This document shows, one piece after another, positions 1,424 to 22,532 of a stretch of DNA of 22,532 nucleotides. The notes beneath the pieces were generated by a model. The model searched no databases. It was not told where the DNA came from and was given only the letters and a program-made list of their open reading frames with translations. Where the stretch lies: positions 1 to 22,532 of IMG/VR virus record IMGVR_UViG_3300028025_006220, one strand, 5' to 3'. Every line of letters starts with the position of its first letter. The first letter of the stretch is position 1. The translations under genes were made by a program, and so were the position numbers. Source of the DNA: a virus.

Positions 1424-2818
1424 ATGCCGAACAGATGGCCCATAGCAAGTGGTAATTGGAGTAATGCAGCAATTTGGAGTGGTAGTATTATTCCTACGGC
1501 TTCAGATGATGTATATGCTAATAGTCAATCAATTTATATTGATACCGATATAACAGTACTAACATTACGTAATGCTGCTATAACTGGTGTTACCCAAGGC
1601 GGAATATTTTATTTAAACAACGGCATTAATGTTAATTTAACAGGAATACCAGCAATGTTCCATACAGGACCTGCAGTATTTGTAGTTACAAACACTCCAT
1701 TAGTAATAATATCTGGATCTAATAGTGCAACTATTACTGGCAGTTTGGGGGCAACTTCATTTGGTCCAAAAATACATCTGCAAGATAATTCAAGCTTACG
1801 TATTTCCGGAAGTGTAGTTTCTACAACTAACACATTAAACATAGGAATACGACATAGTTCAACTGGTAATTTAACTATAACAGGAAGTATTTCTGCTAGT
1901 TCCGGACAAAGTTCTCATGCAATATATCTTGATAACTCAGGTTCGTTAAATGTATTAGGTAATGTAGGTGGTGGTACTGTTACTGGTGCAACTGGTATTA
2001 ATAATCTTATTGGTAGTAATTTTATAAATATTATAGGAAATATAACTGCAGGAAGTGGTACAACATCATATGGTATTAACAGTATTGGTATTAATAGTTT
2101 CATAAACATAACTGGAAATGTTTCTGGTAGTTCTGGAAATAATGCTACGGGAATTCTTAATTCAATTATTAACACAATTATTATAACAGGTAGTGTTGAT
2201 GGAGGAGTCGGTTCTGCATGTTATGGTATTACTAATTCAGGTAATGGTTTTATATTTGTTACGGGTAGTGTTAATTCTAGAGGAAATAATTCTGGAATAT
2301 ATTCAACAGCAGCTAGTGTTACTATAGTAGTACGAGGGCCTATTAGTGCTAGTTGGACACCATCATCAAATAATAACGGACTAGTATCATCTGGAGTAAC
2401 TGCAACAAACATATTCACAGGCCCATTTTTCAATACAGGCTCATTTAATGCCGTTTGGGCATACCGTATGCAAATAATTGAAGGCCCAACCCAATGGCGA
2501 TTCGACACAGAAACAGCAGGTGTAACAAAAACATTATATACTTCAAATCAACTTCCTGGAGTACCTCAACAAACAGATGTACGAAAAGGAACACAATATA
2601 ATTTTGGATTAACCGGCTCACTTGAAATGCCTGATCCAACCACAGTAAAACAAGGAGTTGCTGTAGATAATACAACAGGTTCTGCTATTTTAACCCCACA
2701 AGATATGTTTGATGTAGCAACACAAACGTTAACCGACTCGGGTAGTATAGGAAATTTATTAACCGGAGCTTCCACTGTACAAACAGTAGGAGCTACCATA
2801 TCATCATTTAAAGTGTAA
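1424..2818 (+). CDS. Beta-solenoid adhesin, paralogue 1 of 4
   Basis: A 464-residue protein in three parts. The N-terminal cap (about residues 8-50) has the pattern GNWSNAAIWSGSIIPTASDD, the GxWS-xxxxW-xxGxxPxxxDDV signature seen at the start of many bacterial and phage beta-helix adhesins. The middle (about 60-330) is a series of short strands with the rhythm xITGxVxGG..YGIxNSG, rich in G, S, T, N and I, as expected for a right-handed beta-solenoid. The C-terminal block (about 340-464) holds FDTETAG, DVRKGTQY, GVAVDNTTGSAILTPQD and TVQTVGATISSF; it is shared with the next three genes and is probably a trimerisation or attachment domain. It starts immediately after the preceding stop. There is no signal peptide. 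It is most likely a tail-fibre or virion surface protein; the receptor is unknown. Confidence 0.75.
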   Translation: MPNRWPIASGNWSNAAIWSGSIIPTASDDVYANSQSIYIDTDITVLTLRNAAITGVTQGGIFYLNNGINVNLTGIPAMFHTGPAVFVVTNTPLVIISGSNSATITGSLGATSFGPKIHLQDNSSLRISGSVVSTTNTLNIGIRHSSTGNLTITGSISASSGQSSHAIYLDNSGSLNVLGNVGGGTVTGATGINNLIGSNFINIIGNITAGSGTTSYGINSIGINSFINITGNVSGSSGNNATGILNSIINTIIITGSVDGGVGSACYGITNSGNGFIFVTGSVNSRGNNSGIYSTAASVTIVVRGPISASWTPSSNNNGLVSSGVTATNIFTGPFFNTGSFNAVWAYRMQIIEGPTQWRFDTETAGVTKTLYTSNQLPGVPQQTDVRKGTQYNFGLTGSLEMPDPTTVKQGVAVDNTTGSAILTPQDMFDVATQTLTDSGSIGNLLTGASTVQTVGATISSFKV

Positions 2819-2820
2819 TT

Positions 2821-4179
2821 ATGCCAACTAGATACGCAGTAGCATCGGGTAATTGGAGTAGTTTAGCTACTTGGGATGGTGGAACAACAGTCCCAACATC
2901 ATCTGATGATGTATGGGCTAATAACTACAGAGTATTTATCGATCAAGATATAACAGTAAAAACCCTAAGAAATCACCCAGTTGCATCTCCTGTAATAGCA
3001 GCAGGTGGTAGTTTTATTACAACGGGAAGTAGAACAATCACATGTACAGTAACAAATGCAGGTTCTGGTAGTATATATGGTGGATTTGTAAACTATCAAT
3101 CAATCTCATCAGTGTTAATAGTTACAGGAAGTGACAATGTTAATATAGTTTCTGATATTATGGGAGGTTTATTACCCTCCCCATATGGGTATGCAGTAAC
3201 CATAGCAAATACTGGTACGGTAAACATAACAGGTAGTATTGCTGGTTACGTATTTGAAGGTGTATCAGTTACAACAGTATCTGGAGGAACAATAAATATT
3301 TCTGGAAGTGTTAGAGGTAATTATCTGCGATCGGGGGGTGGAGCTAATAGTGTTGGAATGACAGTATATGTTACTAAAACAATTAACGTTGTTGGTGATG
3401 TTATAGGTGAACCTCTTGTTAGTGGAATAGGAATTTCCACCGGAGGAAGTGGTAATATAATTTTAGACGTTAAAGGAAATATTTATACTCGAGGAGCTAA
3501 CCCAGCCATTAGTCATGTATTTGGTACATCAACTATAACAATTACTGGGAGTATCTACCAAATCCCCGGTTCTACAGCAACATCCGTTTTATCTATTGGC
3601 GGTACATCTTGCAATATAAATATTTCTGGAAGTATAACAGCAGGAATTGCTGGAAGTGGTATAGTGCACTCTACCCTTGGAACCTCAAATTTAACAGGAC
3701 CTATTTCAGCATCAGTAACAGTACCAGGCATACAATTTTCAAATGCATCCCACAATTTAAGCGCAACTGGTCCATTTTATAACGTAAATAATCGCAATGC
3801 TGTATATTCTCCTAACCTAAGATTACTTTCGGGCTCAACTACAACTTGGACTTTTGACACAGAAACATTTGGAGAACAAAGAACACTATACACACAAAAT
3901 TATCCAGGTAATTTCCCTGCTGCCTCAAACGTAAGACAAGGAACAGTATTTGGAGATACAAACCAATTTACAGGAACAGTAGCAATACCTCCTACTGGCT
4001 CTGTATTTAAAGGAGTACCTGTAGATAATACAACAGGTTCTGCTTCATTTGATACACAAAGTGTATGGGGTATAAACACAAATAATTTAACAACAACAGG
4101 AAGCTTAGGAGCACGTTTACGTAATGTTGCAACAGTTGCAACCGATGGTGCTGCAATAGCTTCAAAAGGAAATTTATAA
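2821..4179 (+). CDS. Beta-solenoid adhesin, paralogue 2 of 4
   Basis: A 452-residue protein with the same plan as its neighbours. The cap reads MPTRYAVASGNWSSLATW followed by P.SSDDVWANNYRVFIDQDI (residues 1-45). The middle consists of NITGSI / NISGSV / NVVGDV / ITGSIY steps spaced roughly 20-30 residues apart, typical of a beta-helix with T/S/N turns. The C-terminal block contains FDTETFGEQRTLYTQN, NVRQGTVFGD, GVPVDNTTGSASFDT and LGARLRNVATVATDGAA. It starts two bases after the preceding stop and lacks a Shine-Dalgarno. The last codons (AAT TTA TAA) form a near-copy of the TATTTATAA motif directly before the next ATG, which may be chance. It is probably a virion surface fibre or glycan-binding protein; I see no catalytic motif. 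Confidence 0.75.
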   Translation: MPTRYAVASGNWSSLATWDGGTTVPTSSDDVWANNYRVFIDQDITVKTLRNHPVASPVIAAGGSFITTGSRTITCTVTNAGSGSIYGGFVNYQSISSVLIVTGSDNVNIVSDIMGGLLPSPYGYAVTIANTGTVNITGSIAGYVFEGVSVTTVSGGTINISGSVRGNYLRSGGGANSVGMTVYVTKTINVVGDVIGEPLVSGIGISTGGSGNIILDVKGNIYTRGANPAISHVFGTSTITITGSIYQIPGSTATSVLSIGGTSCNINISGSITAGIAGSGIVHSTLGTSNLTGPISASVTVPGIQFSNASHNLSATGPFYNVNNRNAVYSPNLRLLSGSTTTWTFDTETFGEQRTLYTQNYPGNFPAASNVRQGTVFGDTNQFTGTVAIPPTGSVFKGVPVDNTTGSASFDTQSVWGINTNNLTTTGSLGARLRNVATVATDGAAIASKGNL

Positions 4180-4182
4180 AAT

Positions 4183-5970
4183 ATGTCATATATTAGATAT
4201 GCAGTTCAAAATGGAGTATGGAGTAGTGGATCTACTTGGGATAATGGTACAGTACCATTAGACGATGATGATGTGTATGCTGATGGAAGAACCATAACAA
4301 TCAATCAAAACATCAACGTATTTAGAATTACTAATACACCTAGCCCATCCCGTTTACCAGGAAATGTAATACCTATCATGACTTCAAACACAACACCAGA
4401 AGGTGCTGTATCTGCAAGTAGTTTTAGTGGTACATTATTTCCATGGCGTGCATTTGATAATAGTTATTCAACATGGTGGCAGTCTGTAACAGCAAATTCA
4501 GCTTCAATTGCATATCAATTTTCTTCTGGAAAAGTAATTAAACAATATGCATTTTATTCACATGCTACAAATGCCCAAAACATTAGAAATTGGTTTTTTG
4601 AAGGAAGTAATGATAATATAACATATACTATTATTGAAACAGTTACAGGATTTACAACTGCTATCAATACATGGTATGTAAGGGATGTATCTGCAAATAC
4701 AACATCATATACTTGGTATAGAATAAGAATAGAAGCAGTACAAACCCTAGGAAATCTCCCTACAATACCGCAAATTAACATGACTGAACTTACTAGCTCA
4801 GCCTATTCAACGGGTAATAGTGGTAGCTTTATTTCTGGAGGGGACATACAAATTTCTGCATCTGCACAAGTAGCAGATGGATTTTTTGGATTACATCCTA
4901 TTGGTGCTATTAATACTACGGCATTTTTTACAGTTACCGGATCACATAGTGTAGGAATTACAGGAAGTATAGCAGCTGTTCAAGGTGGCTCTGTTAGTAA
5001 TAGATATGGAGTTCTCATTCCAAGTGGCGGAAAATTAGAAGTTATAGGAGATATAATCCCTTCATCTACAGCGGGCGGTACTAGTAATAATATTGGAATA
5101 TTATGCTCCTCAGGAAGTGTAACGATTACTGGAAGTATACGAGCAGGAGGAGGTAATACTGGGGCTGTTCCTTTATACATCATTAATGGTACTGCAAGTT
5201 TTTCCGGAAGTATTAATTCTATAACATTTGCTACTCCTATAGGTTTTGGAGCAGGTAATGCTCAAGTAAATATTATTGCTACCCCTATCATTAACGGAAC
5301 TAGTACAGGAAACATGCAAGTAGGTGGAACTAATAGTGGAACCTTAAATTATACAGGTCCGGTTATTGGCAACAACAATGCTGGTATTGGAGTAGCAGGA
5401 ACAATGACAGTTAATATTTCCGGAAATGTTTCCACAATAGGTGCAGCCTCTGGATTAATTTATTCCGGAACAGGAACAGCCACAGTAAATGGATCTATAA
5501 CATCCGGACTTACAGTACCTGGACTCCAATCAACCTCAACAGGTATTGTTCGTGTAACTGGTCCATTAATTTCCCAAAATAATTACCCTGCATTATATGC
5601 TCAACGTACCCAATTATTATCAAATTCAACACCATATTACGATATACAATCAGATACATTTAATAGAGATATAATATTTTATGATACATCATATACCTCA
5701 AGTTTACCTTCTCCAACTAACGTTCGAAGCGGAAGTTTATATGGTGGATCAAATGAATTTTCTGGTTCAATGATAATACCTTCAACAGGTTCCGTACGTT
5801 ACGGAGTACCCGTGGATAATGTAACAGGTTCTGCTACATTGACACCACAAGATATTTTAAACTATACAACACAAAATTTAACAGGTTCCAATTCAATTGG
5901 AGCTCGTTTAAAAAATATAGCAACAGTACAAACCACAGCAGCAACTATTGCTGCTTTTAAAGGAAAATAA
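4183..5970 (+). CDS. Beta-solenoid adhesin with discoidin-like domain, paralogue 3 of 4
   Basis: A 595-residue paralogue, 130-190 residues longer than the other three. The extra length is a domain at about residues 65-205 lying between the N-terminal cap (GVWSSGSTWDNGTVPLDDDD) and the solenoid. It has the hallmarks of an F5/8 type C (discoidin) carbohydrate-binding domain: SASSFSGTLFPWRAFDNSYS then TWWQS near its start, a central IAYQFSSGKVIKQYAFYSHA, then NWFFEGSNDNITYTIIET, and a closing YTWYRIRIEA..LPTIPQINMTEL. The rest follows the family plan with ITGSI/ISGNV steps and a C-terminal block containing TNVRSGSLYGGSNEFSGSM, GVPVDNVTGSATLTPQDIL and IGARLKNIATVQT. The added domain probably gives this copy a second glycan-binding activity; the ligand is not predictable from sequence. 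Confidence 0.78.
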   Translation: MSYIRYAVQNGVWSSGSTWDNGTVPLDDDDVYADGRTITINQNINVFRITNTPSPSRLPGNVIPIMTSNTTPEGAVSASSFSGTLFPWRAFDNSYSTWWQSVTANSASIAYQFSSGKVIKQYAFYSHATNAQNIRNWFFEGSNDNITYTIIETVTGFTTAINTWYVRDVSANTTSYTWYRIRIEAVQTLGNLPTIPQINMTELTSSAYSTGNSGSFISGGDIQISASAQVADGFFGLHPIGAINTTAFFTVTGSHSVGITGSIAAVQGGSVSNRYGVLIPSGGKLEVIGDIIPSSTAGGTSNNIGILCSSGSVTITGSIRAGGGNTGAVPLYIINGTASFSGSINSITFATPIGFGAGNAQVNIIATPIINGTSTGNMQVGGTNSGTLNYTGPVIGNNNAGIGVAGTMTVNISGNVSTIGAASGLIYSGTGTATVNGSITSGLTVPGLQSTSTGIVRVTGPLISQNNYPALYAQRTQLLSNSTPYYDIQSDTFNRDIIFYDTSYTSSLPSPTNVRSGSLYGGSNEFSGSMIIPSTGSVRYGVPVDNVTGSATLTPQDILNYTTQNLTGSNSIGARLKNIATVQTTAATIAAFKGK

Positions 5971-5971
5971 T

Positions 5972-7189
5972 ATGCCAAATAGATGGCCCATATCATCAGG
6001 TAATTGGAGTAATTCCTCAATATGGAGTGGTAGCATAATACCTACTGCATCGGATGATGTGTTTTTAAATAATCAAACGGTAACGTTAGATCAAAACGTA
6101 ACAGTAGTTAGTATACGAAATGCCGCAACCGGCAGTGCTGTAAATGGTGGAAGAATTGAAATTTATAGTGATTATAACATAACAACGACATTTCTCCCCA
6201 GTAGACCAGAAACAAATGGGTATATACAATATTTTAATACTGGTTCAATTACATTAACTGGTAATTTACCCCTAAATACTGCAGGTTTAGCTGGAAGTAT
6301 ACGTGGTATAGGAAATGTTGGTTCCGGAACTGTAAATTTTGTTGGAAACGTGTTCGGATTTGATAGTTCTGCTACTAGTTGGGGTATAGGAAATTTATCC
6401 TCAGGTACGGTTAATATAATAGGAAATGTTACTGCTGGTCGTAATGCTAGTGCTTTTGGTGTGTATAATGCTCTAAACGGTATTATAACAATAACTGGAA
6501 ACGTTGATGGAGGAACTACTAGTTTTAATAGAGATGCGGTATATAATTTAGGAGTAGGAACGATAATAGTTACGGGAAATGTAATAGCTGCTAGTACAAC
6601 TCCATCATATGGTATAAATAATGTTTCAATAGGAACGGTAACAGTAACTGGAAATGTAACAGCATCAGGATCTGCAGGTATTAACTCAACCGCAGCAGGT
6701 ACCATAAACGTAATAGGACAGTTACAAGCATCAACAACAGCCAATGCAGTATCGTCAACCTCAACCGCAGCAACCAACATATTCTCAGGCCCACTCATTA
6801 ATTCAGGCTCACGTAACGCAATATATTGCTATAACGTACGATTATATGATGATGTAACAACACGTTACACAATTGGAGTATCTGGTTCAACCAATACAAT
6901 TACATTATTCTCACCCGATCAAGTAACCGGAGTACCTTCGGGTTCCGATGTTAGAGTAGGAACAATTTATGGACCCGGAAATGAATTAACAGGTTCAATG
7001 CAAGTACCAAACCAAAATTCGGTAGCATATGGTGTACCTATAGACAATACATCTGGTTCTGCTTTAGTTAATCCGGAAGATTTATGGAATTTTGCTTTAA
7101 CTTCATTAACATCATCCAATTCAATAGGACAAAGACTAGCTTCAACAGCAACAACTGCTTCTAATGCTGCTATTATCAATTCATTTTAA
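5972..7189 (+). CDS. Beta-solenoid adhesin, paralogue 4 of 4
   Basis: A 405-residue protein. I placed the start at 5972 (MPNRWPISSGNWSN) because the upstream in-frame ATG at 5948 lies inside the preceding gene and the MPNRWP start matches paralogue 1 exactly. The cap IWSGSIIPTASDDVFLNNQT is nearly the same as in paralogue 1. The middle has steps such as NIIGNVTAG, TITGNVDGG, IIVTGNVIAA and VTVTGNVTAS, each about 30 residues apart with intervening YGINN/FGVYN segments, a regular beta-solenoid. The C-terminal block holds GSDVRVGTIYGPGNELTGSM, GVPIDNTSGSALVNPEDLW and SIGQRLASTAT. It is the shortest copy, with fewer solenoid coils. It is probably a virion surface fibre; the target is unknown. Confidence 0.75.
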   Translation: MPNRWPISSGNWSNSSIWSGSIIPTASDDVFLNNQTVTLDQNVTVVSIRNAATGSAVNGGRIEIYSDYNITTTFLPSRPETNGYIQYFNTGSITLTGNLPLNTAGLAGSIRGIGNVGSGTVNFVGNVFGFDSSATSWGIGNLSSGTVNIIGNVTAGRNASAFGVYNALNGIITITGNVDGGTTSFNRDAVYNLGVGTIIVTGNVIAASTTPSYGINNVSIGTVTVTGNVTASGSAGINSTAAGTINVIGQLQASTTANAVSSTSTAATNIFSGPLINSGSRNAIYCYNVRLYDDVTTRYTIGVSGSTNTITLFSPDQVTGVPSGSDVRVGTIYGPGNELTGSMQVPNQNSVAYGVPIDNTSGSALVNPEDLWNFALTSLTSSNSIGQRLASTATTASNAAIINSF

Positions 7190-15283: not shown

Positions 15284-17047
15284 ATGGCAGAAACAATTGT
15301 ATCACCTGGTGTATTAGCCATAGAAAATGATCAATCATTTATTACACAAGCCCCAGTTCAAGCAGGAGCAGCAATTATAGGACCAACTCCTAAAGGAAAA
15401 GTTGGAATCCCTACATTATGTACAACATATAGTGACTATACTAATAAGTATGGTACTACATTTCTTAGTGGAGGTCAATCATATACCTACTTAACCTCAA
15501 TTTCAGCTTATAACTATTTTAACAATGGTGGGTCAGCTTTACTTGTAACTAGAGTAGTAAGTGGTAGCACTTTAACAGCCTGGACACCAGCTTCATCCTC
15601 ATTTGTTTCATCATCTAATCATTCTGCAGGTGCTCCATACAATACTAGTGTATTTGTATTGGAAACTCTTGCTGAAGGAAAAATATTAAATAGTGATGGC
15701 CCTACAGGTTCAAACGATACTTTATTAAGTGGTTCATCTAATAATTACAGATGGCAAATACTTTCTCCAAACATTGATAACGGAACTTTTACATTGTTAA
15801 TTAGACAAGGTAATGATTCAAGTGTTCAACCATCAATTATAGAAACTTGGGGTCCGTTATCATTAGATCCATTTTCTCCAAATTATATTGAAAAAATAAT
15901 TGGAAATCAATATGAAACTATTCAAGAAGATGATGGTGAGTATTATATTCAAACCGTAGGTAATTATCCTAACATATCAAATTATGTTCGTGTTAAACAA
16001 GTAAATCAACCTACTCCAAATTATTTTAATAATTTAGGTTTACCTAAAAATGAATATACAGGTTCACTTCCAAAAGCGGCCCAAGGAGTATTTGGTAATG
16101 GAAATGGAGATAATATTCCAACATTTGCTACTGGAGCATATTATGAAAATATTACCAATACAAATATTCAAGGATTAAGTGCAAACGATTATACTGAATC
16201 TATAGCATTACTGGCTAATAAAGATGCTTACAAATATAATTTTATTACAGCACCTGGATTAATAGCAGATGATACATTTACAAATCATGTTTCTGTAATA
16301 ACACAACTAGTTAATACTGTTACTGAAAGAGCAGATACCATGACGGTTATTGATTTGGTAAAATATAATTCTCCTATTAATGCTATTTTAACTAACGGTG
16401 CTAGAACATTATATGACAATTCATATGTTGCTAATTATTGGCCTTGGGTTAAAACAATTGATCCCAATACAGCTACTCAAAGATGGGTTCCTGCTTCTAC
16501 TATGATACCTGGAGTTTATGCTAAAAATGATTCTATATCATATCCTTGGTTTGCTCCTGCAGGAATAAATAGAGGAATAATTACTAATGCTCTTGCAGCA
16601 GAAAGATTTTTAACCCAAGGAAATAGAGATTCACTTTATCAAGCCAATATCAACCCAGTAGCAACATTCCCAAATTCCGGTGTTACTGTATTTGGACAAA
16701 AAACATTACAGAAAAAACAAAGTGCATTAGATCGTGTAAATGTAAGACGTTTACTAATTGAATTAAAAAATTATATTTCTCAAGTAGCAAACTCATATGT
16801 ATTTGAACAAAATGATACAGTTACTAGAAATGAATTGTCATCTATTATTAATTCTTATTTATCTACAGTTCAAAATAATCAAGGATTAACATCTTATCAA
16901 GTTGTAATGGATGAATCTAACAATACACCAACAGTAATAGATAACAACCAGTTAATAGGTCAAATTTATTTACAACCTACAAAAACAGCTGAATTTATTA
17001 TTTTAGATTTCAACATATTACCTACAGGTGCAGTTTTCCCATCTTAA
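15284..17047 (+). CDS. Tail sheath protein 1, T4 gp18-like
   Basis: A 587-residue contractile tail sheath subunit. The N-terminus (SPGVLAIENDQSFITQAPVQ, AGAAIIGPTPKGKVGIPTLC) and SYTYLTSISAYNYFNNGGSA (about residues 66-85) are the usual first-domain signature. The middle (residues 100-300) is a variable, probably surface-exposed insertion. The C-terminal domain is strongly conserved: WFAPAGINRGIITNALAAER (about 424-443), VFGQKTLQKKQSALDRVNVR, RLLIELKNYISQVANSYVFE and LIGQIYLQPTKTAEFIILDF. In T4 this domain forms the inner sheath that grips the tube. The gene has its own TATTTATAA element and is followed 45 bases later by a second sheath gene. A sheath role is near certain; its share of the sheath relative to the second copy is unknown. 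Confidence 0.93.
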   Translation: MAETIVSPGVLAIENDQSFITQAPVQAGAAIIGPTPKGKVGIPTLCTTYSDYTNKYGTTFLSGGQSYTYLTSISAYNYFNNGGSALLVTRVVSGSTLTAWTPASSSFVSSSNHSAGAPYNTSVFVLETLAEGKILNSDGPTGSNDTLLSGSSNNYRWQILSPNIDNGTFTLLIRQGNDSSVQPSIIETWGPLSLDPFSPNYIEKIIGNQYETIQEDDGEYYIQTVGNYPNISNYVRVKQVNQPTPNYFNNLGLPKNEYTGSLPKAAQGVFGNGNGDNIPTFATGAYYENITNTNIQGLSANDYTESIALLANKDAYKYNFITAPGLIADDTFTNHVSVITQLVNTVTERADTMTVIDLVKYNSPINAILTNGARTLYDNSYVANYWPWVKTIDPNTATQRWVPASTMIPGVYAKNDSISYPWFAPAGINRGIITNALAAERFLTQGNRDSLYQANINPVATFPNSGVTVFGQKTLQKKQSALDRVNVRRLLIELKNYISQVANSYVFEQNDTVTRNELSSIINSYLSTVQNNQGLTSYQVVMDESNNTPTVIDNNQLIGQIYLQPTKTAEFIILDFNILPTGAVFPS

Positions 17048-17071
17048 ACTAAATTTTAAGAAAAAAATTAA

Positions 17072-17080
17072 TATTTATAA
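17072..17080 (+). promoter_or_regulatory. TATTTATAA element (candidate late promoter) of sheath gene 2
   Basis: Exact nonamer in the 45-base gap between the two sheath genes, 12 bases before the ATG at 17093. It is followed by an A-rich leader without a Shine-Dalgarno. Confidence 0.55.
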
Positions 17081-17092
17081 TAAAAAAACACA

Positions 17093-18790
17093 ATGGCAAA
17101 TTTCACAGCATCTCCTGGAGTTTCACTAAATGAGATAGATAACACGTTTTTAACAGCACAACCCACACAAGCGGGTGCGGCTATAATAGGACCTACAGTA
17201 AAGGGCCCTGTTGAAATCCCAATATTAGTTACCTCCTATTCAGATTATCAAAACATTTTTGGAGATTCTTTTATAAGTGGAGGAAACTCATATTCATATT
17301 TTACTTCTATTGCAGCATATAATTATTTTAATTATGGTGGTACTTCATTATTAGTAGCTAGAGTGGTAACAGGATCTTATTCCTCAGCCACTAGTTCAGC
17401 GGTTATTAATGAATTTACTTCATCATCATTCTCTTTAGAAACAATATCTGAGGGAGTAATTATGAATAGTACTGGAAGTGAAACTACTAATAATGTTTTA
17501 GTATCTGGTTCTCAAAATAATGTAAGGTGGGAAATTACAGCCCCTAACACAGGATCAGGAACATTTAATGTGTTAATTAGAAGAGGAGATGATGCTTCTA
17601 ATAAAAAAATAATTTTAGAAGCTTGGAATAATGTTACTTTAGACCCAAATTCTTCAAATTATATATCTAAAGTAATAGGAGACCAAACATTAAACTATGA
17701 CTCAACAGATAACCAAATGGAAATCTCAGGATCATATCCAAATAATTCACGATATGTTCGTATCAAATCAGTAAATTATCCAACACCTAACTATTTAGAT
17801 TCAAACGGTACCCCATTAACTCAATTTACAGGGTCTATTCCACTTGCTCAAAGTGGTTCATTTGGTGCAGCTACAGGAAATATAATAGGAGGTGCTAAAT
17901 TTTATGAAACTATTACTTCAGGAAATACTCAAGGAATTTCACCTACTAGTTATAATAATATGATTAGTTTATTAGGTAATACTGAAGCATACCAATTTAA
18001 TGTATTATTTACTCCTGGTTTAACTAACGATTTGCATACATCTCAAGTAACTAGTATAATTACTAATACAACTTCAAGAGGAGATAGCTTATATGTAGTT
18101 GATTTAGGTACTTATGGAACATCAGTTTCAGGAATAAATATTCAAGCCCAATCTAGAGATACATCATATGCTGCTGCTTATTTTCCTTGGGTACGCATCA
18201 TCGATCCAGGAACAGGAAGACATATTTGGGCCCCAGCATCAACTGTAATCCCAGGTGTATATGCATTTAATGATAAAGTATCTGCCCCTTGGTTTGCCCC
18301 CGCAGGTATTAATCGTGGTGGTTTAAATACTGTACTATCCGCTGAAATGAAATTATCCCAGAATCAAAAAGATTCTTTATATGAAAATAATGTTAACCCA
18401 TTAGCTACTTTACCAAAACAAGGTGTTGTAGTATTTGGACAAAAAACATTACAAAAAGCATCTTCTGCACTTGATAGAGTAAATGTAAGACGTTTATTAA
18501 TTGAATTGAAAAACTACATCCGTCAAATTGCAGATACAGTAGTATTTGAACAAAACACAATTTCTACAAGAAATTCATTCCTTGCAAGAGTAAATCCATA
18601 TTTAGAAACCATCCAACAAAAACAAGGTTTATATGCCTTTAAAGTAATTATGGATGATTCAAATAATGGACCAGATGTAATAGATAGAAATCAATTAATA
18701 GGCCAAATTTATATTCAACCAACACGCACAGCTGAATTTGTTTCTCTAGATTTTATTTTACAACCAACAGGAGCTGAGTTTCCTGGGTAA
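17093..18790 (+). CDS. Tail sheath protein 2, T4 gp18-like
   Basis: A 565-residue second sheath subunit, by eye roughly half identical to the first. The N-terminus reads MANFTASPGVSLNEIDNTFL with AGAAIIGPTVKGPVEIPILV. The C-terminal domain has APWFAPAGINRGGLNTVLSA, VFGQKTLQKASSALDRVNVR, RLLIELKNYIRQIADTVVFE and LIGQIYIQPTRTAEFVSLDF. All conserved sheath landmarks are intact, so this is a working gene rather than a decaying copy. The central region (about residues 100-290) is shorter than in copy 1 and differs most. Both proteins may co-assemble, or one may serve a special position such as the baseplate-proximal or neck-proximal ring; the sequence does not decide this. The tube gene follows 52 bases later. 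Confidence 0.93.
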   Translation: MANFTASPGVSLNEIDNTFLTAQPTQAGAAIIGPTVKGPVEIPILVTSYSDYQNIFGDSFISGGNSYSYFTSIAAYNYFNYGGTSLLVARVVTGSYSSATSSAVINEFTSSSFSLETISEGVIMNSTGSETTNNVLVSGSQNNVRWEITAPNTGSGTFNVLIRRGDDASNKKIILEAWNNVTLDPNSSNYISKVIGDQTLNYDSTDNQMEISGSYPNNSRYVRIKSVNYPTPNYLDSNGTPLTQFTGSIPLAQSGSFGAATGNIIGGAKFYETITSGNTQGISPTSYNNMISLLGNTEAYQFNVLFTPGLTNDLHTSQVTSIITNTTSRGDSLYVVDLGTYGTSVSGINIQAQSRDTSYAAAYFPWVRIIDPGTGRHIWAPASTVIPGVYAFNDKVSAPWFAPAGINRGGLNTVLSAEMKLSQNQKDSLYENNVNPLATLPKQGVVVFGQKTLQKASSALDRVNVRRLLIELKNYIRQIADTVVFEQNTISTRNSFLARVNPYLETIQQKQGLYAFKVIMDDSNNGPDVIDRNQLIGQIYIQPTRTAEFVSLDFILQPTGAEFPG

Positions 18791-18842: not shown

Positions 18843-19331
18843 ATGGCAATTTTAAATCCTAACGAAATATTCTACACAGCATTTGAACCAAGGCTAACAA
18901 ACCGTTTCATCCTTTATATGGATGGAATCCCATCATATTTGGTAAAAGGAATGGGTGCTATTTCATTAACACAAACAGCAGTTGCTCTTAACCACATCAA
19001 CGTTCAACGTTATGTAAAAGGAAAAACTATTTGGAATACAGTTCAATTCACATTATTTGAAGCTATTACTCCTGCTGGTTCACAAACAGTAATGGAATGG
19101 GTTCGTTTAGGCCATGAATCAGTAACAGGTAGAGATGGTTATTCTGATTTCTATAAAAAAGATATTACATTTAATGGTTTAGGTCCTGTAGGTGATATTG
19201 TTAACGAATGGATTATCAAAGGAGCTATGATTACTGAAGTTAACTTTGGAGATTATAACTGGGATGATGATGGTACAGCAGTAAATATTACAGTAACAGT
19301 ACAACCAGATTATTGTATCTTGAATTACTAA
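18843..19331 (+). CDS. Tail tube protein, T4 gp19-like
   Basis: A 162-residue tail tube subunit, almost exactly the length of T4 gp19 (163). It fits the phage T4 gp19 tube family: NRFILYMDGIPSYLVKGMGA near the N-terminus (residues 20-39), the strand NHINVQRYVKGKTIWNTVQF, an EAITPAGSQTVMEWVRLG helix (about 75-92), and the C-terminal IIKGAMITEVNFGDYNWDDD then VNITVTVQPDYCILNY. Tube rings stack inside the sheath and form the channel for DNA. The gene follows the two sheath genes, the conserved 18-19 order, and is followed by a strong terminator. The portal gene (gp20), which comes next in T4, is not here. Confidence 0.93.
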   Translation: MAILNPNEIFYTAFEPRLTNRFILYMDGIPSYLVKGMGAISLTQTAVALNHINVQRYVKGKTIWNTVQFTLFEAITPAGSQTVMEWVRLGHESVTGRDGYSDFYKKDITFNGLGPVGDIVNEWIIKGAMITEVNFGDYNWDDDGTAVNITVTVQPDYCILNY

Positions 19332-19424: not shown

Positions 19425-20018
19425 ATGAAATTATTTGTTGTTATATTATTTGTTTTAATTTCTTATTTTAGTTATAGTCAATGTAATGGAACACAATCAT
19501 TTACTCTATCCCCACTACCAGTAGGAGGAACTTATTTACCTGGTCAAACAGTAACAATGTGTTATACAATGAATGGATATACACAAACCGGTACTAATTG
19601 GGTTGAAGGATTTGATTTAACATTAGGTGCAGGATGGTCATCAGTAACTCCTCAAACAGCTCCTGCTAATTGTGGAGGTAATGCAACTGGAGGACAATGG
19701 GTATGGAAAACCTCAGTAACATCAACCACAACCCCTATAGTAACAGTAGGACCAGGATACTTTTTTGATTTAACCGTAGATAGTAATCCCGGAAATGATT
19801 TTGGAGACGCAGGCTCATGTACTTGGACATTTTGTGTTACTTTAGTAGTAGCAAATGTATGTACCCCTCAAAGTTTATTAATTCAAGTTACCGCAGGTTC
19901 TGATGGGCTTTGGGGTAGTTACACGAGTAATAGCTGTGATGCCGTAACGCCTTTTAACGTGTTTAATGGAACAATTAACGCAACAACCCCTGTATTAGGG
20001 AATATTATTCATAACTAA
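19425..20018 (+). CDS. Exported protein resembling the N-terminal domain of T9SS surface adhesins
   Basis: A 197-residue protein with a clear signal peptide: MKLFVVILFVLISYFSYSQ (residues 1-19), a hydrophobic core ending in S-Q, as is typical of Bacteroidota, with likely cleavage before Gln19. The mature part has seven cysteines (20, 46, 83, 132, 137, 146, 171), suggesting disulfides and a periplasmic or outside location. Landmarks are GTYLPGQTVTMCYTMNGY (35-52), NWVEGFDLTLGAGW (58-71), VGPGYFFDL (108-116), GNDFGDAGSCTWTFCVTL (123-140) and DGLWGSYTSNSCD (160-172). From memory, this matches a domain at the N-terminus of very large gliding/T9SS-associated surface proteins of Flavobacteriia and relatives. 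It ends in LGNIIHN and has no sorting domain of its own. Cys20 is not in a lipobox. Probable host-derived cargo; the molecular function is unknown. Confidence 0.75.
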   Translation: MKLFVVILFVLISYFSYSQCNGTQSFTLSPLPVGGTYLPGQTVTMCYTMNGYTQTGTNWVEGFDLTLGAGWSSVTPQTAPANCGGNATGGQWVWKTSVTSTTTPIVTVGPGYFFDLTVDSNPGNDFGDAGSCTWTFCVTLVVANVCTPQSLLIQVTAGSDGLWGSYTSNSCDAVTPFNVFNGTINATTPVLGNIIHN

Positions 20019-20028
20019 AAACAAAAAA

Positions 20029-20586
20029 ATGAAAAAATTAATTTTTACACTTCTTCTAATTATCCCATCAATTGTTTATTCTCAATTGACAACAATTAAC
20101 CCGGATACAGTTTGTTACCAAACCACAGCATTATCAACTTATACAATACCTTCAGTAGGTGCAGGAACATATACTTGGACAATTCCTGCTTGTGCTACAT
20201 TAACCTCAGGTCAAGGAACAAATTCAATCCAAGTAAATTGGTCAGCTTGCCCTCCAGGATTAATTAATAATGCAATTACAGTAGCATATTCAAGTGCAGC
20301 TGGATGCCCTGCTCTACCAGTAACACTTAATGTGTTGATATACCAAGTTATCCCTGTAATTACCCCAGTAGGACCTTTTTGTGCTAATGACCCATGTCTA
20401 GTATTAACAGCAACACCTACAGGAGGAATATGGAGTGGTACAGGTGTATCGGGAAATCAATTTTGTCCCGGAACAACAAATTCATTGATTACTTATACTT
20501 ATACTCAAAGTGGATGTACATTTAGTGCTAATACAGGAGCAGTTATCAATCCAGTACCAGTATTATCTCCAATACAACATAATTAA
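20029..20586 (+). CDS. Exported PKD/Ig-like domain protein
   Basis: A 185-residue protein with signal peptide MKKLIFTLLLIIPSIVYSQ (residues 1-19). The mature part contains two beta-sandwich units of the PKD/Ig-like kind common in Bacteroidota surface proteins. The first (about 20-106) has GAGTYTWTIPACATLTSGQG, then TNSIQVNW and a VAYSSAAGC strand. The second (about 107-175) has PVGPFCANDPCLVLTATPTG and GIWSGTGVSGNQFCPGT ahead of ITYTYTQSGC. The 'GtYtWtiP...sGqGTnsI.V.W' and 'PiGPfC..D..v.LtA.P.GG.WSG.GV' patterns are characteristic of repeats inside large T9SS-exported adhesins. It ends with VLSPIQHN, similar to the end of the preceding protein. Eight cysteines suggest disulfides. The gene lies 10 bases after its neighbour and overlaps the next start by one base (TAATG). 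Probably exported to the periplasm or surface. Confidence 0.75.
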   Translation: MKKLIFTLLLIIPSIVYSQLTTINPDTVCYQTTALSTYTIPSVGAGTYTWTIPACATLTSGQGTNSIQVNWSACPPGLINNAITVAYSSAAGCPALPVTLNVLIYQVIPVITPVGPFCANDPCLVLTATPTGGIWSGTGVSGNQFCPGTTNSLITYTYTQSGCTFSANTGAVINPVPVLSPIQHN

Positions 20587-21149
20587 TGAAATTAATTTTT
20601 TCCATATTATTTTTAATACCTTTACTAGTATTTTCTCAACAAACCATAGAGATATGTGATGATGTTAAATACTTTAGTTATTCAACTCAATCGGATATTG
20701 CTAGTAACATTGAATGGTATTGTGATGGACAATATTATTATGGAAATGAAATAACAATTGCATGGAATGAACCGGGAACATATATAATAACAGCTACTGC
20801 TACTGCAGATGGATGTTCTAGTATTCCTCAAACATATAATGTTATTGTAATTGAATGTGATCCTTTACTTTATTGGGTTCCAAATACATTTACTCCAAAT
20901 GATGATGAATATAATACAACATGGGGTCCTATGTTTGAAGGCCCATATGAAAAAGATGATTTTCATTTAATTGTACTTAATAGATGGGGAAATTTAATAT
21001 GGGAGAGCTGGAATGCTGAATCACGTTGGGATGGAACCTACAACAATAAATCAGTAACAGATGGAGTTTACACTTGGGTTATTGATTTTGGAATATTGGG
21101 TACAGACGAACGTAGATTAATTCATGGACACGTTACTATAATTAGATAA
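20586..21149 (+). CDS. T9SS type-B sorting domain (CHU_C) protein
   Basis: A 187-residue exported protein. Residues 1-18 (MKLIFSILFLIPLLVFSQ) are a signal peptide. Residues 19-92 form a short Ig/PKD-like unit (NIEWYCDGQYYYGNEITIAW, GTYIITATATADGCS). Residues 97-187 are a gliding-motility-associated C-terminal domain (TIGR04131 / CHU_C, PF13585): VPNTFTPNDDEYNTTWGP, FHLIVLNRWGNLIWESWNA, RWDGTYNNKSVTDGVYTWVI and a final GHVTIIR. In Bacteroidota this domain directs Sec-exported proteins through the type IX secretion system to the cell surface. All landmarks are present and the domain reaches the very end of the protein, as required. The start overlaps the preceding stop by one base, so it is translationally coupled. 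A T9SS signal on a phage gene implies delivery to the surface of a T9SS-positive host; the effect there is inference. Confidence 0.85.
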   Translation: MKLIFSILFLIPLLVFSQQTIEICDDVKYFSYSTQSDIASNIEWYCDGQYYYGNEITIAWNEPGTYIITATATADGCSSIPQTYNVIVIECDPLLYWVPNTFTPNDDEYNTTWGPMFEGPYEKDDFHLIVLNRWGNLIWESWNAESRWDGTYNNKSVTDGVYTWVIDFGILGTDERRLIHGHVTIIR

Positions 21150-21589: not shown

Positions 21590-22324
21590 ATGGAAGAATC
21601 AAAGTTCAATTTACCAACAGAAACAATTGAATTACCCTCAAAAGGTTTACTTTACGCTGAAGGAACAGAATTAGCAAGTGGTAAAATCGAAATGAAATAT
21701 ATGACAGCTAAGGAAGAAGATATCCTTACTAACCAATCATATATTAAAAATGGTACAGTATTAGATAAATTAATGAAATCACTCATTGTATCTAAAATAA
21801 ATTACGATGATTTATTAGTAGGAGATAAAAATGCCATTATGGTAGCATCACGTATCCTAGGATATGGTTCCGAATATACTTTTGAATATAATGGGGAAAT
21901 GCATACCATTGATTTATCAACTATTGAAAGTAAACCATTAAAAGAAGATTTATTTAATAATCATGTAAATGAATTTATTTTTACCTTACCACATTCAAAA
22001 AATACAATTACGTTTAAACTTTTAACCCATAAAGACGAACAAGATATAAATCGTGAATTAGAAGGACTTAAAAAAATTAACAAAAATAATTCCCCCGAAT
22101 TATCTACTCGTTTAAAATATCTCATAACCTCAGTAAATGGGGAAAGAGAAAAAAAAGATATTCGAGAATTTATTGATAATTATCTCTTAGCCAAGGATTC
22201 CAGAGCTTTAAGAGAATATATTAAAGAGATTCAACCCGATGTTGATCTAACTTTTTTTCCCGACGGAAATAGCAATAGAGTCAATATCCCAGTTGGGGTT
22301 AGCTTTTTTTGGCCTGACGTATGA
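21590..22324 (+). CDS. Baseplate assembly protein, T4 gp26-like
   Basis: A 244-residue protein of the T4 base plate protein type (gp26 family, PF12322), involved in building the baseplate hub. Characteristic parts are ETIELPSKGLLYAEGTEL (residues 11-28), KIEMKYMTAKEEDILTNQSY (32-51), NGTVLDKLMKSLIV and the DDLLVGDKNAIMVASRILGY block, then YGSEYTFEYNGEMHTIDLST, where many relatives have a Cys-rich pair that is missing here. The C-terminal half is helical and ends PVGVSFFWPDV. The coding frame crosses two runs of seven T (22252-22258 and 22304-22310) and stops at a TGA followed at once by TAG. A conserved-looking sequence continues in another frame beyond it (next entries). There is no TATTTATAA upstream; a looser TTATATAAAAT lies about 10 bases before the start. 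Confidence 0.72.
   Translation: MEESKFNLPTETIELPSKGLLYAEGTELASGKIEMKYMTAKEEDILTNQSYIKNGTVLDKLMKSLIVSKINYDDLLVGDKNAIMVASRILGYGSEYTFEYNGEMHTIDLSTIESKPLKEDLFNNHVNEFIFTLPHSKNTITFKLLTHKDEQDINRELEGLKKINKNNSPELSTRLKYLITSVNGEREKKDIREFIDNYLLAKDSRALREYIKEIQPDVDLTFFPDGNSNRVNIPVGVSFFWPDV
22304..22310 (+). other. T7 run, candidate frameshift site
   Basis: Codons AGC TTT TTT TGG of the gp26-like gene include seven consecutive T. A +1 or -2 shift on this run gives the frame that stays open through the following 220 bases to the window end; a -1 shift would hit TGA at 22315. A second T7 run lies at 22252-22258. Frameshift sites on such runs are well known in phage tail assembly genes, and phage Mu uses a -2 shift. 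It could also be a homopolymer sequencing error. Confidence 0.4.
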
Positions 22325-22532
22325 TAGAGTCCCTGAAATAAGGGTTTCATTATTTACACAAATACATCAAATAGTTTTTCACGGAAAAGGTGGTTATGAT
22401 TGGCATACTGTTTACAATATGCCAATTTGGCTTCGTAAGTTTACTTATAACGAAATGATTAAACATTACGAAGATGAGAAAAACAACACACAAAATACAT
22501 CAAACCAATCAGGAACTAAAACTGTTGTAGGA
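22320..22532 (+). CDS. Downstream assembly domain in shifted frame (partial)
   Basis: The frame is open from 22251 to the window end without an ATG before the one at about 22437. From 22320 it reads YDRVPEIRVSLFTQIHQIVF, then GKGGYDWHTVYNMPIWLRKF, then a polar helix ending at the window edge. The 'GKGGYdw.tvYnMPiWLRkF' segment looks like a genuine conserved domain, and I recall similar sequences next to gp26-type genes in other T4-like phages. The only upstream non-ATG start of note is TTG at 22293. It is either the frameshifted C-terminal extension of the gp26-like protein, a separate protein with an unusual start, or the same gene broken by a homopolymer error. The C-terminus lies outside the window. 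Confidence 0.6.

Follow-up and report, generated by a model that had tools for sequence, protein, structure and literature searches.

The stretch of DNA analyzed here (the window; 22,532 nucleotides, IMG/VR record IMGVR_UViG_3300028025_006220) is a 22.5 kb fragment of a virus contig carrying tail genes. Near its end lies a gp26-type gene, here termed G, whose last codons overlap a second conserved segment, the T domain, that lies in the +1 frame. An original prediction, made from the letters of this DNA, had proposed that the gene continues into that frame by slippage on a run of seven T's (T7). The features at this junction are:

21590..22324, plus strand: G (TAC-N), the short product of a putative gp26-type tail assembly chaperone gene, recognized by PHROG 150, PF12322, its homologue in phage immuto and a predicted model.
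22252..22258, plus strand: first T7 run, excluded as slip site by 46 of 126 representatives.
22304..22310, plus strand: candidate slip site, T7 (TTT TTT T_GG), with a proposed +1 shift of tRNA-Phe on UUU_U (codon-frozen Phe pair, pinned shift interval).
22304..22318, plus strand: near-invariant core TTTTTTTGGCCTGAC, readable in both frames (FFWPD / FFGLT) and identical in 108 of 127 junctions.
22305..22532, cut at the window end, plus strand: T domain in the +1 frame, the C-terminal extension of the predicted product GT, starting FFGLTYDRVPE...GGYDWHTVYNMPIWLRKF...
22322-22324, plus strand: TGA stop codon of G, in frame 0.

G ends with the codons AGC TTT TTT TGG CCT GAC GTA TGA, its protein with SFFWPDV, and a TAG follows the TGA; the FFWPDV-TGA-TAG ending of frame 0 (21590-22324) and the T7 runs at 22252-22258 and 22304-22310 are as originally described. 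So is the +1 frame, which runs without a stop from 22251 up to 22532, where the window truncates it after 94 codons, and lacks an early ATG: its first ATG stands at 22419, within the conserved core YNMPIWLR, and a mechanical TTG start at 22293. The string TTTTTTTGGCCT, present a single time in the window, turned up in 0 of 100 shuffles and thus exceeds chance expectation. No firm identification of this T domain came from Pfam, PHROGs or NCBIfam.

Relatives were collected from a viral contig collection, each scan being analyzed on the best 80 loci of 599, 315, 596 or 600 confirmed relatives, or, in one scan, on all 38. Searches with each of the two parts gave 160 loci (the best 80 of 599 and the best 80 of 315), which together with the window, its own copy in the collection (L001) and five loci from phage records make up 167 sequences. 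Both parts could be scored in 163 of these, and every one, the isolated phages immuto and Mel-JY01 among them, shows an identical +1 relation; in two of the remaining four the locus contains no stop, and the other two, distant phages (Streptococcus GXN1 and Listeria LIS04), returned no BLAST match to the second part, which is seen on reading their +1 frame. Single-base homopolymer errors are common in sequencing generally, and one arising at the T run in sequencing or assembly is a rival account of the break; the recurrence of the same relation in the 163 sequences refutes it, and we discount it almost entirely. The frame change is real and sequencing error is not its source, the same break being present in hundreds of relatives, isolated phages among them.

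Across 235 representatives of the wider kin, in which direction was called with second-domain profiles under two-fold cross-validation (T4 left out), the second domain lies in +1 in 149, in −1 in 84, and scores weakly in 2. Cross-validated +1 calls were obtained for 126 of 127 representatives of the window clade, taken at 85% identity, and for 23 of 24 of a soil/Bacillota clade comprising Bacillus SP-15, Listeria LIS04, Streptococcus GXN1 and environmental contigs ("soil" being a guess); the group labels (window clade, soil, −1) come from an initial assignment whose profiles contained the tested sequences.

Beyond the stop, the differences within 224 close pairs number 912, 624 and 2,123 at positions 1, 2 and 3 of +1-frame codons, and this concentration on third positions argues that the +1 frame is under protein selection. 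The T domain is 57-94% identical across 80 loci (the best 80 of 315 relatives), and its 3' end is visible in L087. It could in principle be a separate protein made from an internal start, without any frameshift, as mechanical start codons exist in many members and the immuto and cyanophage records annotate the second open reading frame (ORF) from an internal ATG. However, 79 of 126 representatives contain no ATG in the stretch from the final +1-frame stop to the domain motif, and 19 contain neither ATG, GTG nor TTG there; moreover, the +1 reading is conserved right from the slip site, and T4 gp51 has G and T fused in one frame, all of which makes an internal start very unlikely. Neither of the outcomes that the original prediction had named as speaking against it, a T count that gives a single frame or homologues with a normal ATG start for the second domain, was encountered. 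In the deposited records, the T domain begins at an internal ATG in immuto (L002, 4351-4461) and in P-HM1 gp51 (L174, 2220-2381), and is without annotation in S-MbCM6 (L175, after 2211). Annotation is thereby corrected in isolated phages whose second ORF had been overlooked or given a doubtful internal start.

The place of the shift is narrowly delimited. Among the 126 window-clade representatives, the latest opening of the +1 frame is 2 nt upstream of the Phe-Phe pair, and the earliest frame-0 stop is 5 codons past the start of that pair; assuming one site common to all, the shift must lie within about 17 nt (approximately −2 to +15), an interval that holds only TTT TTT TGG CCT NNN. The gene's most codon-frozen conserved columns are those of the Phe pair (TTT in 100%) and of the Pro (CCT in 96%), against a median of 0.64, and Pro codons elsewhere in the gene are distributed as CCA 553, CCT 412, CCC 178 and CCG 73. 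TTT TTT TGG CCT GAC is exact in 108 of 127 dereplicated junctions; variants include TTT CTT TAC CCT GAC (4 of 127) and, in immuto, TTT CTT TGG CCT GAC. A DNA-pattern scan of the collection returned at least 120 stretches, and the T domain, detected with a profile partly trained on the same contigs, follows in +1 after 80 of 80 analyzed sites, with G preceding the pattern in all 79 analyzed stretches of sufficient length. Both T7 runs had been offered as slip candidates, and the frozen motif and pinned interval uphold the one at 22304.

The run at 22252 was rejected: 46 of the 126 window-clade representatives have a +1 frame whose opening lies less than 45 nt ahead of the second run, too late for the first to be usable, and a T run at its position was found in only 50 of the 126.

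Fixation of CCT could also point to a +1 slip on the proline codon itself (CCU_GAC) rather than on the Phe codons, and proline codons are listed as +1 shift sites in Listeria phages in part of a review (PMC5009743). A slip at this codon is nevertheless a poor candidate, with little probability in our estimate, as CCA occurs in 5 of 126 window-clade representatives, a Ser, Thr, Ala or Tyr codon replaces Pro in 7 of 20 soil representatives, and the coding of Leu (CUG) in the +1 frame also accounts for the fixation.

Of the two directions originally proposed, −2 or +1, the frame change itself stands for both, and T7 by itself is compatible with either. In a −2 programmed frameshift, the P-site tRNA-Phe would move back two bases on the T run and reach the same frame, with perfect re-pairing in 116 of 126 window-clade representatives, and an excerpt of the same review gives phage Mu as a precedent (PMC5009743). 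Re-pairing is poor, however, in 8 of 126, whose second codon is CTT or CTA, and the wider kin favor +1: in 7 of the 20 soil/Bacillota representatives with a Phe-Phe site the pair reads TTC TTT, where −2 would land tRNA-Phe on UCU and +1 on UUC. We therefore prefer +1 and regard −2 as unlikely. In the window, +1 predicts the junction VNIPVGVSFFGLTYDR, and −2 an extra residue, VNIPVGVSFFFGLTYDR; for immuto, whose site is AGC TTT CTT TGG, the predicted junction peptides are GVSFFGLTPEYR for +1 on UUU_C, GVSFLGLTPEYR for +1 on CUU_U and GVSFLFGLTPEYR for −2. Slippage during transcription would likewise draw on the homopolymer, a T7 being present in 113 of 126 window-clade representatives; but 8 of 126 window-clade and 7 of 24 soil representatives keep the +1 relation on runs of only three T's, so that this explanation has hardly any plausibility left.

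The sites are otherwise those expected of a +1 slip, with UUU in the P site, a pyrimidine next and cognate re-pairing in +1 (UUU_U in the window, UUU_C in the soil clade). The −1 heptamer X_XXY_YYZ (T_TTT_TTY) is absent from the window, where C precedes the run. Junctions in the soil/Bacillota clade are commonly GAG TTT TTT CGT or GAG TTC TTT CGT, CGT being the codon after Phe-Phe in 14 of the 20 representatives with such a site. TTY TTT CGT, with a core identical to that of the influenza PA-X site, is found in L186, L188, L191, L196, L199, L203, L205, L208, L210 and others. No convincing downstream RNA stimulator was found for the window (z 0.17 over 100 nt). Over 60 nt downstream, the window clade averages z −0.64 (5 of 30 below −2, the 30 drawn at random from 126) and the soil/Bacillota clade z −0.04 (1 of 24 below −2).

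The setting of G is that of a tail module, in which two sheath genes are followed by the tail tube, three small secreted-type genes, a further small gene and then G (21590-22324):

15284..18790 (15284-17047 and 17093-18790), plus strand: two tandem tail sheath genes, both with Pfam sheath domains.
18843..19331, plus strand: tail tube protein (PHROG 4542 tail tube, E 2.9e-16).

The tape measure side of this order lies beyond the window end; the succession of tube, G(T) and tape measure is found in L002, L006, L167 and L087. For SP-15 the third gene is annotated "putative tail protein", and for L087 (95%-identical) a tape-measure-like ORF lies downstream, with the tube, outside the L087 locus, taken from the window. 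The place between tube and tape measure is the classical position of the chaperone gene, as reported by Xu et al. in 2004. G matches the PHROG 150 "baseplate hub" profile (E 1.8e-9), and the predicted GT product carries this match across the junction (profile 7-263 of 282); PF12322 (T4_baseplate) matches at E 5.8e-4 and 20.1 bits, under its curated cut-off of 24.5 bits, and the "baseplate hub subunit" of Flavobacterium phage immuto is 61.7% identical. The top two Protein Data Bank matches of the G model (predicted local distance difference test, pLDDT, 89) are YqbN (Z 5.8 over 89 residues, root-mean-square deviation 5.1) and HK97 2ob9 (Z 4.7 over 78 residues, deviation 5.5), both below Z 8; the next rows fall to Z 3.8 and 2.5, and Foldseek gave E 0.83. 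We take B. subtilis YqbN to be an XkdN-like chaperone. The T model, a helical hairpin, has moderate confidence (pLDDT 78), and its best fold match in the same database had E 2.3. The assignment as chaperone derives from the position upstream of the tape measure together with the weak fold match to HK97 and YqbN; the label "gp26-like" holds, in its chaperone sense and not as a structural baseplate component. The original analogy to tail assembly chaperones is borne out by gene order, by the overlapping ORFs in different frames and by the conserved slip site ahead of the first stop.

Taken together, the sequence comparisons make it probable that this locus encodes a tail assembly chaperone whose short form G is accompanied by GT, made by a programmed, low-frequency +1 slip on UUU_Y, and the frameshift interpretation of the original prediction is supported. 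Most ribosomes would translate G (244 aa) and end at the stop at 22322, and a minority would slip +1 on the Phe codon(s) at 22304-22309, the peptidyl-tRNA-Phe shifting its pairing from UUU to the overlapping UUU and GGC being read next; these ribosomes would produce GT, the bearer of the T domain. If the roles parallel those in lambda G/GT, coating of the tape measure protein would fall to G, and recruitment of tail tube subunits to the T domain of the scarcer GT.

Several observations weigh against a +1 chaperone frameshift of this kind. TTT TTT T permits −2 as well; the A-site codon UGG is not known to be decoded slowly in the host; and the Z scores of 5.8 and 4.7 are middling by the tool's scale and alone no proof of kinship. 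The second domain lies in −1 in window-like L346 and in soil relative L191, both within +1 clades, L169 and L181 score weakly for direction, and 4 of 24 soil representatives have no recognizable Phe-Phe site. The junction of L346 (1501-2247 and downstream) reads AAT TTC TTC TGG, and L346 and L191 represent either a switch of direction or a local indel.

The −1 group consists of 84 representatives, among them Prochlorococcus P-HM1, Synechococcus S-MbCM6, Aeromonas phiAS5, Vibrio PG216, Pseudomonas PA5oct, Xanthomonas XacN1, Agrobacterium Atu_ph07 and Salmonella Marshall; the −1 call is cross-validated in 82 and weak for L169 and L181, and the exceptions L346 and L191 bring the cross-validated −1 calls to 84. 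A T_TTT_TTY site is present in 81 of 85 rows classed −1 (L346 counted among the 85). A T precedes the run in 82 of 82 −1 rows with a site versus 6 of 145 +1 rows (Fisher p 3e-55, phylogeny ignored), and the 60 nt downstream in −1 members fold better than shuffles (mean z −2.03, 16 of 30 below −2). By hhalign, the groups have homologous second-domain profiles (E 7e-9, 2e-8 and 3e-6; L346 and L215 left out), and the direction label needs four changes on a 66-row G tree built by a quick method, three of the changes being forced by strongly supported branches. A broader proposal, to which we give an even chance, is that one chaperone family reads the same Phe-Phe junction in opposite directions. 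On this view, −1 would be set by a T just ahead of the T run together with downstream RNA structure, and +1 by any other base there and the lack of such structure; the direction would have switched three or more times on the G tree, and the +1 branch would form a widespread phage class of +1 sites, UUU_YGN, convergent with the influenza PA-X site.

In T4 itself, cross-validated profiles found no T domain downstream of gp26. The product of gp51, which is encoded on the other strand of that locus, has a full-length match to PHROG 150 (E 1e-87) as well as one to PHROG 634 and ends in a T domain, so that T4 has G and an in-frame GT as two genes, a conclusion to which the present analysis came independently. 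That gp26 and gp51 are tail chaperones is published (Vladimirov, Gautam and Davidson 2022, as cited in a portion of PRFect, PMC10885494), as are poly-T −1 signals in T4-like chaperone genes (Vladimirov et al. 2022, as cited in a portion of the Adele paper, PMC12846349).

Elsewhere in the window, the three small secreted-type proteins between the tail tube and chaperone genes (20586-21149, 20029-20586 and 19425-20018) include one with a CHU_C type IX secretion signal domain (E 3.6e-14) and another with a PKD-like domain (E 9.5e-10), and the three genes are found in L087 too. Such bacterial surface-secretion domains look unusual within a phage tail module and suggest a Bacteroidota host. At 1424-7189, four long G/T/S-rich paralogous proteins with similar N-termini lie in a row and are probably fibre-like.

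A frameshift in a chaperone gene is in itself of a known kind. The title of a 2022 paper makes the case that T4-like phages use a mechanism other than frameshifting. The variant here is +1 on UUU_Y, and neither the +1 branch nor the slip motif nor the repeated switch of direction was found described in the literature searched, a search that did not extend to the coverage of the +1 branch in Vladimirov et al. 2022. G/GT frameshifting is called conserved in long-tailed phages "except T4" in part of a review (PMC5009743), and a shifted T domain at one codon pair is kept in most of the gp26 family sampled outside T4. The +1 branch supplies natural variants, in their hundreds, of a simple bacterial +1 site lacking any obvious RNA structure, and what determines the direction of a shift is thus directly testable. 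As in lambda G/GT, overlapping ORFs in different frames have a slip site at the end of the first, the gene lies between tail tube and tape measure, and a short and an extended product are expected; unlike lambda, which shifts −1, the window family has its second domain in +1 and its G belongs to the gp26/PHROG 150 family. T4 gp26/gp51 (PHROG 150 / PHROG 634) share this G family and homologous T domain profiles, but T4 encodes G alone (gp26) and G+T in one frame (gp51), where the window has a frame change. Cyanophage and other T4-like relatives change frame between G and T at the same Phe-Phe point, although they, like the jumbo phages, do so by −1 at U_UUU_UUC, many with downstream RNA structure. 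In influenza A PA-X (UCC_UUU_CGU), +1 shifting was shown by peptide sequencing, P-site slippage on UUU_C is favored, and a wider UUU_C shift class was predicted, according to sections of that paper (PMC3498833); UUU_CGU is identical in the soil/Bacillota branch, whereas the window has UUU_UGG, and the PA-X gene is unrelated and belongs to a eukaryotic virus and ribosome. In RF2 (prfB; CUU_UGA), a YUU codon likewise slips +1 onto UUU, and CUU_U occurs in some members of the family described here, with the difference that the window's stop comes four codons past the second Phe codon.
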